This document shows, in pieces, positions 1-6,592 of a DNA stretch of 64,000 nucleotides (position 1 is the stretch's first letter; each line of letters opens with the position of its first letter). The DNA is from Acidobacteriota bacterium (GTDB taxonomy: Bacteria; Acidobacteriota; Vicinamibacteria; Vicinamibacterales; UBA8438): assembly GCA_009838525.1 (NCBI GenBank), contig VXRJ01000018.1:273087-337086 (forward strand), given 5' to 3'. A model generated the notes under the pieces. The model saw nothing but the letters and a program-made list of their open reading frames with translations, did no database searches and was not told the DNA's origin. The translations under genes were made by a program, and so were the position numbers.

Positions 1-95
1 TGTGTGGGCGCCCCCCGCCCCCCCGCGCGGCGCCCCCCCCCCCCCCCCCCGCCGCGCGGGGCGCCGCGCCGCCCGCCCCCCCCCCCCCCCCCCCG
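1..95. other. Low-complexity C/G run at the window edge, probable assembly artefact
   Basis: The first 95 bases are almost pure cytosine with some guanine, including homopolymer tracts of about 20 C. Translated in the frame of the following symporter they give only Pro, Arg, Gly and Ala, unlike the N-terminus of any sodium:solute symporter. The sequence becomes normal coding DNA abruptly at about position 96. I read this as low-quality contig-end sequence and not as biology. Confidence 0.7.
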
Positions 96-1413
96 CGTCC
101 TGGTTTTCACGCTGCTCGCGACCTGGATCGGATCGGGCAGCCTGTTCGGGGGCGCCGGCCTGGGGTACCGCTCCGGTTTCTCCGCGCTCTGGCAGTCAGC
201 CGGTGCCTGGGTGGGGATCGCGCTCGTCTACTTCATTGCGCCGCGGGTGCGCCGAATCGCGCAGTACACGGTTCCCGACATCCTGGAATTGCGCTATGGC
301 TGGGCCGCGCGCGTGCTCGGGACTATTACCACGGTCTTTGCCTACGGCACGATTGCCGCGTATCAGTTCCGCGGCGGCGGGCGGTTGCTGGAGCTGGTCG
401 CCGGCATCGATCCCGGGACCGGGGCGCTGGCGACCGCCATTTTCTGCATCGTTTTCACTTCGCTCGCGGGAATGCTCTCGATCGCCTACATCGACGTCGG
501 CAACGGCCTCGTGATGACGATCGCGGTCACGCTCGGCGTGGCTTTCCTGGTAAATGATGCGGGCGGGCTGGGCGCCTCGATTGCGCGGCTCGAGCCGCAT
601 CAGGTCTCGTTGTTCGGGGACATCGGCCCCCAGGCGGCGTTTGCGCTCTTTCTTCCCACAATGTTCCTGCTACTCGGCGAAGCGAACATGTATCAGAAGT
701 TCTTTTCGGCCCGCGACGAGCGGGCCGCGCGGCTGGCGGTCGTCGGCTGGATCGCCGGCACGATTGTCGTCGAGACGCTGATCGACTCGACCGGCATCTT
801 TGGTTCGCTGCGGATTGCCGGCCTGGACACCGCCGCGTCGGAAGCGATCGTGATCCAGGTCGCGACCGACGTGCTACCGCCCGCGCTCGGCGTCCTGCTG
901 GTCTGCGGCGCCGCGGCGATTGTGGTTTCTACGGCAAACAGCTTCCTGCTAACGCCGTCGACGAACCTGATCCGCGACGTCTATCAACGCTTCATCAACC
1001 CGGCCGTCACCGACCGGCAGGTAGTGGTCTACACCCGACTGATCGTCGTCGCGGTGGGAGCGCTCGGCTACTACGTGGGCAACTTCTTCCCGAGCATCCT
1101 GGCCATGGCGCTTTGGGCTTACACGATGTACGGCGCGGGTATCACGCCGGCACTGCTGGGCGCGCTGCTATGGAAGCGGGCGACCCGGGCCGGAGGTGTC
1201 GCGTCCATCCTGGCCGGCATGTCAACGACGCTGGTCTGGGAGATCATCGGTCTCGTGCGCGCCGTCGATGGCGAGCCGGCTTATCTCTTCGGCTGGCAGA
1301 CCGCCTATCCGGCGCTCGCTCTGTCCATCGCGACGTTGATCGTGGTCAGCCTGCTGACGCCACCGCCGACGCGGGCCGAAGTTGAATTGTCCGCCGCGCC
1401 GGTTTCCTCATGA
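1..1413 (+). CDS. Sodium:solute symporter family protein (5' truncated)
   Basis: A polytopic membrane protein of the SSS (SLC5-like) family that would couple Na+ entry to uptake of an unidentified solute at the cytoplasmic membrane. Reliable sequence starts near position 96 with the motif TLLATWIGSGSLFGGAGLGY, which matches the first conserved SSS helix region. About ten further hydrophobic helices follow, with the usual LLCSGTNSF-like segment represented by VVSTANSFLL. The first few dozen residues are missing and the apparent N-terminus is homopolymer-derived. Its stop overlaps the ATG of the radical SAM gene (ATGA at 1410-1413), so the two are translationally coupled. The substrate may relate to the radical SAM/ATP-grasp pair; that is inference. 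Confidence 0.85.
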   Translation, partial: CVGAPRPPARRPPPPPPPRGAPRRPPPPPPPRVLVFTLLATWIGSGSLFGGAGLGYRSGFSALWQSAGAWVGIALVYFIAPRVRRIAQYTVPDILELRYGWAARVLGTITTVFAYGTIAAYQFRGGGRLLELVAGIDPGTGALATAIFCIVFTSLAGMLSIAYIDVGNGLVMTIAVTLGVAFLVNDAGGLGASIARLEPHQVSLFGDIGPQAAFALFLPTMFLLLGEANMYQKFFSARDERAARLAVVGWIAGTIVVETLIDSTGIFGSLRIAGLDTAASEAIVIQVATDVLPPALGVLLVCGAAAIVVSTANSFLLTPSTNLIRDVYQRFINPAVTDRQVVVYTRLIVVAVGALGYYVGNFFPSILAMALWAYTMYGAGITPALLGALLWKRATRAGGVASILAGMSTTLVWEIIGLVRAVDGEPAYLFGWQTAYPALALSIATLIVVSLLTPPPTRAEVELSAAPVSS

Positions 1414-2774
1414 ACGTCACGTTGATCGCGACGTACGAACTGGGCCGGCAGCCGTTTGGCCTGGCCTCGCCCGCCGCGTGGCTGCGCCGGGCCGGGCACG
1501 ACGTTACCTGTCTCGACCTGTCGCGCCAGCCGTTCGCCGCCGCCGATGTTGCTCGCGCGCATCTCGTGGCATTTCATCTGCCGATGCACACCGCGACCCG
1601 TCTCGCGTCGCCGGTGATTCAGCACGTCAGGCGTATCAATCCGGACGCCTCGCTGTGCGCCTACGGGTTGTATGCGCCACTCAACGCACCCCATCTCCGG
1701 TCGCTTGGTATCCGCCACACTCTGGGAGGCGAGTTCGAAGCGGATCTCGTGCGCATCGCGGACGACGCGACTACGGATTTGCGCGGCGAGACGGACCTGC
1801 CGCGCCTCGACCTGATCACGCCATGGCGCGACAACCTGCCGCCGCTCGAGCGCTACGCCGCGCTGCAGCGTGGAGGCGCGCGCCACGTAACCGGCTACAC
1901 GGAGGCGAGCCGGGGTTGCCGGCATCTCTGCCGTCACTGTCCGGTCGTGCCGGTCTACGGCGGGCGATTCCGGATCGTTCCGCCGGATGTCGTGGTGGCC
2001 GACGTCGAGACCCAGGCGGCGCGGGGTGCGAAGCACATTACGTTTGGCGACCCGGATTTCTTCAATGGCATCGGCCACGCGATGCGGGTTGTCGAGATGG
2101 TGGCAGACCGCTGTCCGGGCATCACCTACGACGTCACGGTCAAGGTGGAGCATCTGATCACGCACGCGAGTCGATTGCCGAGGCTCCGCGCGACCGGTTG
2201 CCTCTTCGTGACCAGTGCGGTGGAGTCGTTCGACGACGTTGTGCTCGCGCGACTCCGGAAGGGGCATACGCGGTGCGACGTGGAGCGTGCCGTGGGGCTC
2301 TGCAGAGATGCTGGTCTGACGCTCGCTCCGACGTTCATCGCGTTCACTCCCTGGACGACGCTGGAGACCTATCGCGACCTCCTGGTGGAGATCGACCGCC
2401 TCGATCTCGTGGACCAGGTAGCGCCGATACAGTTGGCCCTCCGCCTGCTCGTGACGGCCGGTTCCGGCCTGCTCGAACTGGACGACATGCGACGGCGGGT
2501 CGGCAGCTTCGACGAGGCGAGGCTGGTCTATCCGTGGAGGCATGACGACCCGGCGGTGGACCGGCTCGCGGACGACGTAGCGACCATCGTGGGACGGCGC
2601 CTGACCGCGGACCGGAACTCCGTCTACGAAGAAATCCGTGCTCGGGTGGATGCCGAATGCGGATTGCCGCCCCATCGGCCTGCGCCTGCCCGCCAGCGGG
2701 CGGAAACGCCCTATCTGAACGAGCCGTGGTACTGCTGAGCGGAGCCCGCCCCCGAGCAGGTTGCTCTGGTCTGA
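1410..2774 (+). CDS. Radical SAM selenoprotein with C-terminal CUAEP tail (UGA at 2736-2738 read as Sec)
   Basis: A radical SAM enzyme of 454 residues if the in-frame UGA is read as selenocysteine. Residues 1 to about 125 resemble the B12-binding-like domain of large radical SAM proteins. The [4Fe-4S] cluster motif is Cys170-x3-Cys174-x2-Cys177, and the SAM barrel continues to about residue 400. The frame reaches ...EPWYC, then UGA, then AEPAPEQVALV and a second stop at 2772-2774, giving a CUAEP tail. From memory, NCBI annotation names a radical SAM family for exactly this CUAEP/CCAEP ending. A SECIS-like hairpin lies at the expected distance. The extended stop leaves 7 nt before the ATP-grasp ATG, whereas termination at UGA would leave 43 nt. 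Automated callers will truncate it at 2738. The substrate is unknown. Confidence 0.8.
2736..2769 (+). promoter_or_regulatory. Putative bacterial SECIS element after the Sec UGA
   Basis: Downstream of UGA 2736-2738, GAGCA (2754-2758) pairs with TGCTC (2762-2766) around a GGT loop. C2752-C2753 can extend the stem against G2768-G2769 past a bulged U at 2767. The first loop G is about 20 nt after the UGA. A short stem, a G at the start of a small apical loop, a bulged U and a distance of 16-37 nt are the known features of bacterial SECIS elements such as that of fdhF. Structure was judged by eye only. Confidence 0.65.
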
Positions 2775-2781
2775 CCTTCTC

Positions 2782-4086
2782 ATGACGGCCGCCCGCCCGC
2801 GTCTGCTGGTGGTCTCCGCGACCACCGGCTATCAGTTTCGGTCGTTCCGGACGGCGGCTGATCGACTGGGCGTTGACCTGGTGTTCGCAACGGACCGGTG
2901 CCATCAGCTCGACGACCCCTGGCGCGACGGTGCCGTGCCGATCCGGTTCCACGACGAGGAGGTCGCCGTCCGTGCGATCGTGGCATCGGCCGCGGCTGTG
3001 CCGCTCGACGGTGTGGTAGCCGTGGGTGATCGGCCGGCGACAATCGCGGCGCTGGCGGCCGAGGCACTCGGCCTGCCCGGGCATCCGGTCTGCGCCGTTC
3101 GCGATGCGACCCACAAGCTGCGAAGTCGCGTTCGCCTGCGCGATGCGGGTCTGGCGGTTCCGGAATTCCGGGCGCTGCCCGTTGCGGCGGACGAGGCGGC
3201 GCTGCTCGACGGTGCGCGGTTCCCCTGTGTAGTCAAGCCGATGGCGCTCGCCGCGAGCCGCGGGGTCATGCGGGCCGACACTCCGCGGCAACTCGCTGCC
3301 GCCGCGGCGCGCCTGCGCCGCCTGCTGGAAACGCCGTCGGTGCGGGCGCAACGCGATTCGGCCAACGAGGCAATACTCATCGAGACGTTCGTCCCGGGCC
3401 GCGAGGTGGCCCTCGAAGGCGTGCTGACGGACGGCGCCCTAAGGACCTTCGCCATCTTCGACAAGCCTGATCCGCTAGACGGCCCGTTCTTCGAGGAGAC
3501 GATCTACGTCACGCCCGATACGCTCCCGCCCGGGCCCCGCGGCGACTTGATCGCAGAGGTCGAGCGGGCGGTGCATGCCCTCGGTCTCGCGCACGGCCCC
3601 GTCCATGCCGAGGCGCGCATCGACGGCGATAGGATTGTCGTGCTCGAGGTGGCGCCACGCCCCATCGGTGGCCGTTGCGCACGAGTCCTGCGGTTCGACC
3701 CGGCGGCTGGCCGGGATGGTGCCGGGGATTGGACGTCGTTGGAGGAGGTCCTGGTGCGTCATGCACTCGGGGAGTCGGTTGACGGCTGGCGCGTGAATCG
3801 AGGGTCTTCCGCCGTGATGATGATTCCGGTGCCCGGCGCCGGCATCTGTCGCGGGGTCACCGGCCTGGATGCGGCGCGGGCGGTTCCCGGCGTCGACGAA
3901 GTCGCGATCACCGTAAAGCCGGGCGAGCGGCTCGTTCCGTGGCCGGAGGGGTCAAGCTATCCTGGCTTCATCTTCGCGCGAGGCAAAGACCGGGCGGCGG
4001 TGATGGAGGCGGTTCGCACCGCACACCGTCACTTGAGGTTCGACATTGCAACGGAACTGCCGGTCGGGCCGGATGGGCGCCGATAA
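2782..4086 (+). CDS. ATP-grasp domain protein
   Basis: A 434-residue ATP-grasp enzyme, a fold that forms amide or related bonds through acyl-phosphate intermediates. Residues 1 to about 100 form an N-terminal Rossmann-like preATP-grasp domain. The ATP-binding part includes FPCVVKPMALAASRGVM (Lys plus Gly-rich loop), ILIETFVPGREVALEG, and the metal-binding end VLEVAPRPIGG. A C-terminal lobe resembles carbamoyl-phosphate-synthase-like ligases. The ATG at 2782 is preferred over TTG 2761, because the latter lies inside the SECIS-like hairpin and the Sec-extended upstream gene. There is no clear Shine-Dalgarno sequence, which fits coupling to the radical SAM gene 7 nt upstream. The substrate is not predictable from sequence; a peptide or amino-acid ligase role in the same pathway is inferred. 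Confidence 0.8.
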   Translation: MTAARPRLLVVSATTGYQFRSFRTAADRLGVDLVFATDRCHQLDDPWRDGAVPIRFHDEEVAVRAIVASAAAVPLDGVVAVGDRPATIAALAAEALGLPGHPVCAVRDATHKLRSRVRLRDAGLAVPEFRALPVAADEAALLDGARFPCVVKPMALAASRGVMRADTPRQLAAAAARLRRLLETPSVRAQRDSANEAILIETFVPGREVALEGVLTDGALRTFAIFDKPDPLDGPFFEETIYVTPDTLPPGPRGDLIAEVERAVHALGLAHGPVHAEARIDGDRIVVLEVAPRPIGGRCARVLRFDPAAGRDGAGDWTSLEEVLVRHALGESVDGWRVNRGSSAVMMIPVPGAGICRGVTGLDAARAVPGVDEVAITVKPGERLVPWPEGSSYPGFIFARGKDRAAVMEAVRTAHRHLRFDIATELPVGPDGRR

Positions 4087-4145: not shown

Positions 4146-4427
4146 CTATTGCTTGGCCTGGGGAGGGACGTACTCGGGAGGCAGGGCCGAGCCCTCGCCG
4201 AAGAAGAAATCCTCCATCTGCTCGGCGACCAGCTTCTGGGCTTCCTTCTGCCATGGCATCAGCCGGTACTCGTTGAGGATCATCTTCATCCGCTCTTCCC
4301 AGAGCTTCCACGCCTCCGCGGAGACGTTCTCGTAGATTCGCTTTCCGAGGTCTCCGGGCCACGGCGGCTCTTCGAGCCCCGGCAAATCCCTCTGCAACTT
4401 CACGCACTTGACGGTGCGGCCAGCCAT
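4146..4427 (-). CDS. yggX: Fe(II)-trafficking protein YggX family
   Basis: A 93-residue cytoplasmic protein matching YggX along its length: the N-terminal VKCVKLQRDLPGLEEPP with its conserved Cys, the PGDLGKRIYENVS block, a Trp-rich helix EAWKLWEERMKMILNEYRL, and a C-terminal MEDFFFGEG. YggX proteins help protect iron-sulfur clusters from oxidative damage and are linked to iron handling. The length is normal for the family. It follows the molybdopterin oxidoreductase gene on the same strand after 53 nt, and that upstream gene carries a [4Fe-4S] site, but shared regulation is only possible. It is convergent with the ATP-grasp gene, with 59 nt between their stops. Confidence 0.93.
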   Translation of the reverse strand: MAGRTVKCVKLQRDLPGLEEPPWPGDLGKRIYENVSAEAWKLWEERMKMILNEYRLMPWQKEAQKLVAEQMEDFFFGEGSALPPEYVPPQAKQ

Positions 4428-4480: not shown

Positions 4481-6592
4481 CTAGTGTAGTCCCTTCGGTG
4501 TCGACGCGGTCTCGGTCCAGATCGCGATACTCTCCGCGCCTAGCGCCGCTGTTACGATGCGTGTGACTTCCACGCGCGCATCGTTGAAGCAGGCCCCGTC
4601 GCCGATGTCGGTCAGATCATCCGGCGCGAGGGCGTTGGCGGTCGATCCGTTCAGCGTGCATCGCCGCCAGAGCCCCTTGGGCAGACAGACGACTCCGGGC
4701 TTCATGTCCGCGTCGACAAGAGCCATGCAGTGGACCTCCCCGCGAGCGTTGAAGACGCGGACTGCGTCGTCGGTCGACACGTCGCGCCGCTCGGCGTCGT
4801 ATGGGTGGATGCGAAGTCGCGCGGTCCGGGTTTCCAGTTCGCCGAGCGTCGAGTTGACCGTTCTGGCAGTGGCGGGCGAGACCAGCGCGAGGGGGAACCG
4901 GCCGGTGTCGTCCGCGTCCCCTGCGGGTTCCGGACGGTAGCGGTAGAGGCCAAGCGGCGCCTTGCGGTCCAGTTCATCCGGAACGAGATCGACCTTTCCG
5001 TCCGAGGTCCTCGGGTGGACATCGATGAACTGCACCGGCGCTCGCGGCGCGCCGCCGCGGGTTATGCCTGATTCCAGGAGCGCCTCGCCCGCGTTGTCCC
5101 GAAGCGCGCCGGCGACATGCAGCAGCTCGCCGGTGTCGGCCGGCATCCGCTCGGGCATATCGAGTCCGAGCCGCGTTGCCAGGTCGCCGAATACCTCGAC
5201 GTTGGGCCGAGCCTCTTCGACCGGTTCTACCACCGGCTGCACCATTTGCACGTTGCCGTGGCCGTAGCTGAGGGCCAAGTCGTACTGTTCGAGAAACGTC
5301 GTGGCGGGGAGGACGATGTCAGCCCAGCGCGCGGTGTCGGTCATCACCTGATCGAAGACCACCGTGTAGAGATCCTCGCGTGCGAGGCCGGCCAGCACGC
5401 GGTTCTGATCCGGCATCGTCGCGAGCGGGTTGCAGTTGTAGACGAAGAGCATCTTGACCGGCGGGTCCGTATAGTCGGTCAGCGCACGGCCGAGGTGGTT
5501 CATGTTGACGAGGCGCGTTGGCGGTTCGGGGACGCCGATCCAGTCTTCTTCGGAGAGAGGTATCGCGCGGGAGCTGCTGAGCGAGAAGCCGCCGCCCCGG
5601 ACCCCGAACTTGCCGCCGACGGCAGGCAGCGAAAGCACCGCCATCGCCGCGTTGCCCCCGTTTCGGTTGCGCTCCAGCCCCCAGCCGCAGCGTATCAGGG
5701 CGGGTGAAGTCTCCGCGTAGAGCTCGGCCACCCGTTCGAGTTGCTCCGGATCGACGTCGGCCACTGCTGCCGCCCTTTCGAACGTCCACTCGGCGGCGCG
5801 CCGCCGCAGTTCGTCCGCACCGTGCGTCCGCCCTTCGAGAAATGTGTCGTCGGCGTAGCCGTACTCGAAGAGGAACCGGTGGATGGCAAGCGCGACGACG
5901 ACGTCGGTACCGGGGCGGACAGCAAGATGAACGTCCGCTTGGCGGGCGAGCGGCGTTCGACGCGGATCGATGACGACGAGGGCGGCACCCTCCCGTCGCG
6001 CAGCGCGGACGTGAGGCACAAGGTGGAACCCGGTGGCGGACGGGTTCGCTCCCCAGATGATGATCAGCCTGGCATGCCGGTAGTCTTCATAGGCCACGCC
6101 AGGCATTCGACCGTAGAGGGCCGCCGATGCCGCGGTGGTGGGGGCCGAGCAGACATTGCGTGCGAGGCGCGATGTTCCAAATGCCCGAAACAGCCGCGCG
6201 TCGGCCGTGTCCTGCGACAGGAGCCCGTTCGATCCGCCGTAGGAGATCGGGAGAATCGCTTCGCCGCCGAACTCCTTCCGAATGGCCTGCATCCGTTCGG
6301 CGATCTCGTCGATGGCCCGCGCCCATCCGATGCGCTCGAAGTCCGCCTTGCCGCGTGCGCCTCGGCGCCGGCCGGGAGAGTGCAGGCGGTCGTCGCCGTA
6401 AACTCGCTGATCGAAGTCACGCACCTTGCGGCAGATGAAGCCGGAAGTGGCGGCGTGGCGGGGGGAATGGTCGATCCGCGTGATGCGTCCGCGTTCCACG
6501 GATACGGCTAGGCTGCACGTGTCGGGGCAATCGAGAGGGCAGGCGGTGTCGACGGTCGCTCGTCCCCATCTGAGTGGCGGCTCGGCCGACAT
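4481..6592 (-). CDS. Molybdopterin-dependent oxidoreductase, single subunit, formate-dehydrogenase-like superfamily
   Basis: A 703-residue Mo/W-bis-MGD enzyme of the DMSO reductase superfamily. An N-terminal [4Fe-4S] site is formed by Cys18, Cys22, Cys26 and Cys54 (TACPLDCPDTC ... GFICRK). Cofactor-binding blocks follow: ARLIIIWGANPSATGFH, VVIDPRRTPLARQADVHL, and a C-terminal molydopterin dinucleotide domain ending KPGVVCLPKGLWRR. A conserved-looking Cys148 in NVCSAPTTAA could be the metal ligand, but I am not sure of the alignment. There is no Tat signal and no adjacent iron-sulfur, cytochrome or membrane-anchor subunit, so it probably acts alone in the cytoplasm with a diffusible partner. 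The substrate is unknown. It is divergent from the pseudo-ABC gene. Confidence 0.85.
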   Translation of the reverse strand: MSAEPPLRWGRATVDTACPLDCPDTCSLAVSVERGRITRIDHSPRHAATSGFICRKVRDFDQRVYGDDRLHSPGRRRGARGKADFERIGWARAIDEIAERMQAIRKEFGGEAILPISYGGSNGLLSQDTADARLFRAFGTSRLARNVCSAPTTAASAALYGRMPGVAYEDYRHARLIIIWGANPSATGFHLVPHVRAARREGAALVVIDPRRTPLARQADVHLAVRPGTDVVVALAIHRFLFEYGYADDTFLEGRTHGADELRRRAAEWTFERAAAVADVDPEQLERVAELYAETSPALIRCGWGLERNRNGGNAAMAVLSLPAVGGKFGVRGGGFSLSSSRAIPLSEEDWIGVPEPPTRLVNMNHLGRALTDYTDPPVKMLFVYNCNPLATMPDQNRVLAGLAREDLYTVVFDQVMTDTARWADIVLPATTFLEQYDLALSYGHGNVQMVQPVVEPVEEARPNVEVFGDLATRLGLDMPERMPADTGELLHVAGALRDNAGEALLESGITRGGAPRAPVQFIDVHPRTSDGKVDLVPDELDRKAPLGLYRYRPEPAGDADDTGRFPLALVSPATARTVNSTLGELETRTARLRIHPYDAERRDVSTDDAVRVFNARGEVHCMALVDADMKPGVVCLPKGLWRRCTLNGSTANALAPDDLTDIGDGACFNDARVEVTRIVTAALGAESIAIWTETASTPKGLH

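Follow-up and report, generated by a model that had tools for sequence, protein, structure and literature searches.

Standard gene calling ends a radical S-adenosylmethionine (SAM) gene of an Acidobacteriota bacterium at a UGA that directly follows a cysteine codon. We asked whether this UGA is read as selenocysteine (Sec) and what chemistry the completed protein might serve. The gene lies near the start of the window (the whole 64,000-nucleotide stretch of DNA analysed here), on contig 18 of a 4.29 Mb draft assembly (38 contigs, 96.9% complete) whose closest named relatives are Acidobacteriota, Vicinamibacterales included. The original prediction, made from the sequence alone, held that gene calling truncates this gene, that after Cys-UGA the same frame continues with Ala-Glu-Pro and eight more residues to a second stop at 2772-2774, and that the longer frame restores a tight spacing to the next gene. 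Translation through the UGA at 2736-2738 bore this out: with the TGA read as Sec, 1410-2774 comprises 455 codons (454 residues, Sec counted, and a stop) and ends ...EPWYC-U-AEPAPEQVALV-stop, and the ATG of the following ligase gene at 2782 lies 7 nt after the second stop, as opposed to 43 nt if the first stop (frame 1410-2738) is used.

In a profile search of NCBIfam, the protein matched NF040546, "CUAEP/CCAEP-tail radical SAM (seleno)protein", with 596.5 bits (cut-off 500), the named family to which the prediction had assigned it. The match spans protein residues 3-452 and model positions 1-467 of 468, tail included, and the family's C-U/C-A-E-P tail is present as PWYCUAEP (residues 439-446). 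Full-length match, tail and UGA/Cys alternation are those of the family at large, and no feature sets the window protein apart. Within the phylum, 60 of the 396 genomes encode a member that scores over the cut-off. TIGR04463 was also considered as the family and was rejected, having yielded weak generic radical SAM matches alone.

By comparative genomics it is practically certain that UGA 2736-2738 encodes Sec and that the protein is a genuine selenoprotein, because four lines agree: the insertion machinery, the homologues, a correlation with selA, and the RNA of a selenocysteine insertion sequence (SECIS). Profile searches recovered selA (540.7 bits), selB (304 bits, joint) and selD (308.5 bits) from the same genome, which also carries a tRNA-Sec with anticodon TCA (UCA); in an Rfam search at gathering scores, tRNA was the sole match. 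Cys occupies the UGA site in 27 of the 126 family members placed on a tree, in 10 of 61 loci of the phylum (the other 51 having UGA), and in 21 of the 79 tails taken from the named collection and the window (58 UGA). selA scored over its cut-off in all 49 UGA-form genomes tested and was missing from 5 of 10 Cys-form genomes (p = 5e-5, Fisher's exact test), and these five also have no selB over the cut-off. Two UGA-form genomes (G110 and G287), both fragmented drafts, have no selB over the cut-off. The tree, which comprised the 126 family members and four ArsL proteins, calls for at least 14 switches between UGA and Cys, 11 of them forced by well-supported branches. Sel genes, homologues with CUAEP or CCAEP tails, and conservation downstream of the UGA, three points at which the prediction could have failed, were each looked for and found.

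The hairpin with a GGU loop that had been noted at SECIS distance is present. GAGC (2754-2757) and GCUC (2763-2766) enclose AGGUU (2758-2762), alternatively read as GAGCA-GGU-UGCUC, and the full stem (2751-2757 with 2763-2769) extends through a C.U mismatch to two more outer pairs; 19 nt separate the UGA from the loop, which begins at the 20th nucleotide. The genome (4.29 Mb) contains a single copy of the pattern TGGTAYTGYTGARSN. On its own, the hairpin of the window is unexceptional: 6 of its 7 pairs form, where synonymous shuffles lead one to expect 5.0, and its fold z is ~0.3. The single-sequence fold of the tail was not significant, and the evidence was taken instead from homologues, by tests of covariation in which synonymous codons were permuted according to each gene's own usage. 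Of the 707 stem cells in 101 distinct UGA tails, 603 were paired, against a shuffle mean of 423 (standard deviation 7.6, z 23.8), whereas 27 Cys tails had 82 of 189 paired against 79 by shuffle (z 0.7); stem cells of related sequences are not independent of one another, and the contrast between UGA and Cys forms spans many separate exchanges. Compensatory changes occur in the UGA tails; for example, one pair appears as G-C, U-A or C-G, and another as A-U, C-G or G-C. The homologue consensus is an A-G-(G/U)-U-N loop on a 7-bp stem. A hairpin of the bacterial SECIS (bSECIS) type is conserved by covariation in UGA forms only.

The same comparison separates constraint on the protein from constraint on the RNA. 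Directly after Sec or Cys, A/S-E-P is retained alike in the 101 UGA and 27 Cys tails, and W440, Cys442, Sec/Cys and E-P are invariant in an alignment of 40 sequences. The residues that follow (typically T-x-E-Q-V/L-A-L; xxQxxL) look conserved in UGA forms only and in Cys forms drift or shrink to a few (MEIV, MEQF, METV); because they decay there, they are best read as an imprint of the SECIS hairpin and not as a protein feature. Conservation downstream of the UGA therefore stands at the protein level for Ala-Glu-Pro, while the later residues track the RNA. Some individual tails depart from the common form. Two loci (L092 and L094, in genomes G327 and G263) have a minimal C-U-S-E-P tail with a single L before the stop and a differently placed hairpin. 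In L098 (genome G001), the CUAEP tail is out of frame with the protein body as matched, through a frameshift or a sequencing error. A contig titled as a Bifidobacterium breve metagenome-assembled genome (L124) holds a CCAEP gene of acidobacterial type, and its record name is probably wrong.

The selenoprotein family itself is already named at NCBI and is not new. In keeping with its earlier description as functionally uncharacterised, the name of NF040546 carries no function, and no paper naming the family was found in the literature searched. CUAEP, CCAEP, RCCLKC, NF040546 and NF040542 go unmentioned in the open-access literature searched, the likeliest primary papers lying outside that search, and the family's accession is absent from the main text of a 2026 review on prokaryotic selenoproteins. 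Two other radical SAM families with Sec, TIGR04167 and TrsS (NF045646), have been described (PMC13188914); neither is among the NCBIfam matches of the window protein. The gene cassette, the parallel with ArsL-associated ligases, and the division of the tail into protein and SECIS constraint were derived here, and others may have noticed them earlier.

We next consider the setting of the gene. A transporter of the POT or sodium:solute symporter (SSF) type, the CUAEP enzyme and an ATP-grasp L-amino-acid ligase follow one another in that order, and in the window the ATG of the CUAEP gene overlaps the stop codon of the upstream symporter (1411-1413), the two genes sharing 4 nt. Of 140 loci, 98 have a relative of the ligase next to the CUAEP gene; it lies downstream on the same strand in 81 of them and upstream on the same strand in 6, while the two genes are convergent in 9 and divergent in 2. 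The rearranged cases speak against mere synteny. The closest solved structure to the ligase is that of the L-amino acid ligase BL00235 (3vot, E 1.7e-37), and ATP-grasp_4 with LAL_C2 is common to it, BacD and the neighbour ligase. Upstream, a POT carrier (PTR2; di/tripeptide type) is found in 33 loci, mostly within ~130 bp, and an SSF symporter lies directly upstream in 16 others; the two never occur together. Because this linkage recurs, CUAEP enzyme, ligase and transporter are likely to make up one small pathway. In two loci (L066 and L072) no ligase is near the CUAEP gene, and genes that resemble, by sequence alone, the methionine sulfoxide reductase pair MsrP/MsrQ follow it.

As judged by profiles and alignments, the nearest characterised relative of the CUAEP protein is ArsL, the radical SAM enzyme of arsinothricin synthesis. 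ArsL (NF040542) was the second-best NCBIfam model (247.8 bits, cut-off 450), and conversely ArsL proteins from Priestia, Alicyclobacillus, Pantoea and Pseudomonas plasmids scored 298-373 bits against NF040546, with every further NCBIfam model below 80 bits. CUAEP and ArsL proteins co-align over their full length with 47 invariant columns in common; the terminal Cys-Cys of ArsL is among them and aligns with the Cys-Sec pair. Both also have CxxxCxxC and, in some clusters, an amino-acid ligase: of four ArsL clusters viewed, three contain an ATP-grasp ligase with the same type of domains, and used as queries these ligases find CUAEP-side ligases in 90-94 loci (hidden Markov model E 1e-29 to 1e-42). 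The three are RCCLKC-type clusters on Priestia, Alicyclobacillus and Pantoea plasmids (L197, L198 and L199), and their ligases may point to arsinothricin-containing peptides. The possibility that the CUAEP protein is itself an ArsL was rejected on its sub-threshold score, its YCUAEP instead of RCCLKC tail and the lack of arsenic genes alongside; it differs from ArsL in having AEP in place of LKC, in its Sec and in its other transporters. No true ArsL orthologue scored over the NF040542 cut-off in 297 genomes of the phylum.

An AlphaFold2 model built from 40 family sequences (mean predicted local distance difference test score 94.1, predicted template modelling score 0.92, with the last 34 residues at ~70-84) gave as its best solved matches the radical SAM dehydratase AprD4 (6fd2; VIA Z 28.0, root-mean-square deviation 3.8, 405 aligned) and B12-type enzymes such as MgmA (9ccb), OxsB and TsrM. 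All share the whole fold of a Rossmann domain and a radical SAM barrel at ~15-20% identity. At the N-terminus, the Rossmann domain looks like one that binds cobalamin, yet it scores below the Pfam B12-binding cut-off (23.0 against 32.1 bits); no DxHxxG cobalamin motif was seen in it by eye, a point of difference from the matched enzymes.

On the comparative evidence, SelB and tRNA-Sec insert Sec at the UGA under the direction of the downstream hairpin and so complete a radical SAM enzyme with a C-terminal ...PWYC-Sec-AEP tail. In the mechanism we propose for it, the CUAEP enzyme would, like ArsL, cleave SAM with its [4Fe-4S] cluster. Part of the SAM molecule, most likely the 3-amino-3-carboxypropyl group, would then be passed to an acceptor that is soft and seeks thiols or selenols, and that the two vicinal residues of the tail, Cys-Sec or Cys-Cys, would hold. 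The product would be an unusual alpha-amino acid. Coupling of this product to another amino acid would fall to the ATP-grasp ligase, and transport of the resulting small peptide, or of its precursor, to the POT or SSF carrier. The substrate of ArsL is thiophilic As(III), and transfer of the 3-amino-3-carboxypropyl group by ArsL was proposed in the same work (PMC8552651), with later 2024 JACS work cited in PMC12159101. An ArsL-like transfer to a Cys-Sec-held acceptor remains a tentative analogy, to which we give somewhat less than an even chance; the combination of selenoprotein, ligase/transporter pathway and ArsL-like mechanism is nevertheless the best explanation overall, and one we hold to be reasonably probable.

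Several observations weigh against this proposal. To our knowledge there is no biochemistry for the CUAEP family. Identity to ArsL is ~30-33% over the shared part, the tails differ (RCCLKC against C-U/C-AEP), the linker before the tail is longer in the CUAEP protein, and the ligases of the two sides are ~20-30% identical. Homologues of arsM, arsR, arsN1, arsQ and the arsenic transporter were absent from 141 CUAEP loci at an E limit of 1e-8, in a scan for which the ATP-grasp queries that matched 90-94 loci served as positive control; at 1e-4 there were a few marginal matches. A dedicated arsenic operon is an improbable source of the acceptor. ATP-grasp ligases are common enzymes, 42 of the 140 loci have no ligase in the DNA examined, some of them with full flanks, and the transporter linkage is in part shared ancestry.

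The alternative that survives best is that the Cys-Sec tail acts as a redox shuttle, in electron transfer or in disulfide or persulfide resolution, and binds no acceptor. Animal thioredoxin reductase has a C-terminal GCUG tail with a redox role, the vicinal Cys-Sec pair here is likewise close to the C-terminus, and frequent exchange with Cys-Cys fits a redox role as well as it fits binding. Against this, the closest relative, ArsL, also ends in a Cys pair and acts on a thiophilic substrate (PMC8552651), and the invariant W and EP that flank the pair suggest, if weakly, a defined pocket and not a loose arm; we consider the redox role possible but doubtful. It is less probable still that the pair binds an auxiliary metal or iron-sulfur (Fe-S) centre, or that the enzyme serves Fe-S maintenance together with Nfu, IscA-type and YggX neighbours. 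Nfu/NifU or IscA-type genes do lie near the CUAEP gene in 14 of 61 loci, in several families and other clades, and YggX in 17, but these neighbours vary by clade and may reflect housekeeping synteny, the association with the ligase is wider, and two ligands are few for an Fe-S centre. The remaining alternative, an ordinary UGA stop followed by a chance frame, could appeal to the mismatched hairpin of the window, weak in isolation, and is refuted comparatively by the AEP and hairpin kept in 101 distinct UGA forms, by Cys at the site in 27 homologues and by the sel genes of the genome, which leave it very improbable indeed.

Features of the window at the CUAEP locus (coordinates in window positions).
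Feature	Position	Strand	Evidence
SSF sodium:solute symporter gene, 3' part	96-1413	+	Pfam SSF PF00474, E 1.4e-33
CUAEP-tail radical SAM selenoprotein gene, 454 codons including Sec	1410-2774	+	NF040546, 596.5 bits
N-terminal Rossmann domain, B12-binding type	1410-1790	+	Pfam B12-binding 23.0 bits (cut-off 32.1); fold match to AprD4 and B12 radical SAM enzymes
CxxxCxxC radical SAM [4Fe-4S] motif, Cys170/174/177	1917-1940	+	Invariant in alignments; Pfam Radical_SAM 48.7 bits
In-frame UGA, predicted Sec, residue 443	2736-2738	+	Cys in 27/126 homologues on the tree
Ala-Glu-Pro after Sec, protein-level motif	2739-2747	+	Entropy ~0 in 101 UGA and 27 Cys tails
Predicted bSECIS-type hairpin, loop AGGUU 2758-2762	2751-2769	+	Stem covaries among homologues (z 23.8 over synonymous shuffles)
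ATP-grasp L-amino-acid ligase (ATPgrasp_N + ATP-grasp_4 + LAL_C2)	2782-4086	+	Pfam; 7 nt downstream
Fe(2+)-trafficking protein YggX	4146-4427	-	Pfam Iron_traffic, E 3.1e-34; in 17/61 loci

The recurrence of YggX in related loci is probably shared synteny. Beyond it lies a gene at 4481-6592 on the minus strand that looks, from its sequence only, like a molybdopterin oxidoreductase and that turns up again, 3-4 kb downstream, at 15 loci in related genomes. Elsewhere, Fe-S assembly genes neighbour the CUAEP gene in L048, L053-L055, L058-L060, L063, L088, L091 and L092, with an Mrp-like gene in L048 and L053. At the other end, the symporter gene begins before the window does, on the far side of an assembly gap and a poly-C stretch. 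The window opens immediately after this gap, a run of 10 N in the scaffold with poly-G and poly-C junk on its flanks that breaks into the 5' part of the gene (window 1-95; 7981-8182 of L201); the poly-G/poly-C is an assembly artefact and no real low-complexity feature.

For the organism, these findings settle one truncated gene as a selenoprotein. Across the family, Ala-Glu-Pro would serve the protein and the remaining tail residues the SECIS RNA only, and the exchanges on the tree, at least 11 in number, make the family a natural Cys/Sec experiment. We would further speculate, with considerable reserve, that the CUAEP family is the first of the radical SAM class in which a C-terminal Sec holds a metalloid or chalcogen acceptor for transfer of SAM-derived carbon, and that with a dedicated ligase and peptide carrier these enzymes produce, across Acidobacteriota and further phyla, a widespread and undiscovered class of element-containing small peptides. 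The ties to a ligase, to peptide-type carriers and to ArsL turn an uncharacterised family, present in 60/396 phylum genomes, into a testable small-molecule pathway.
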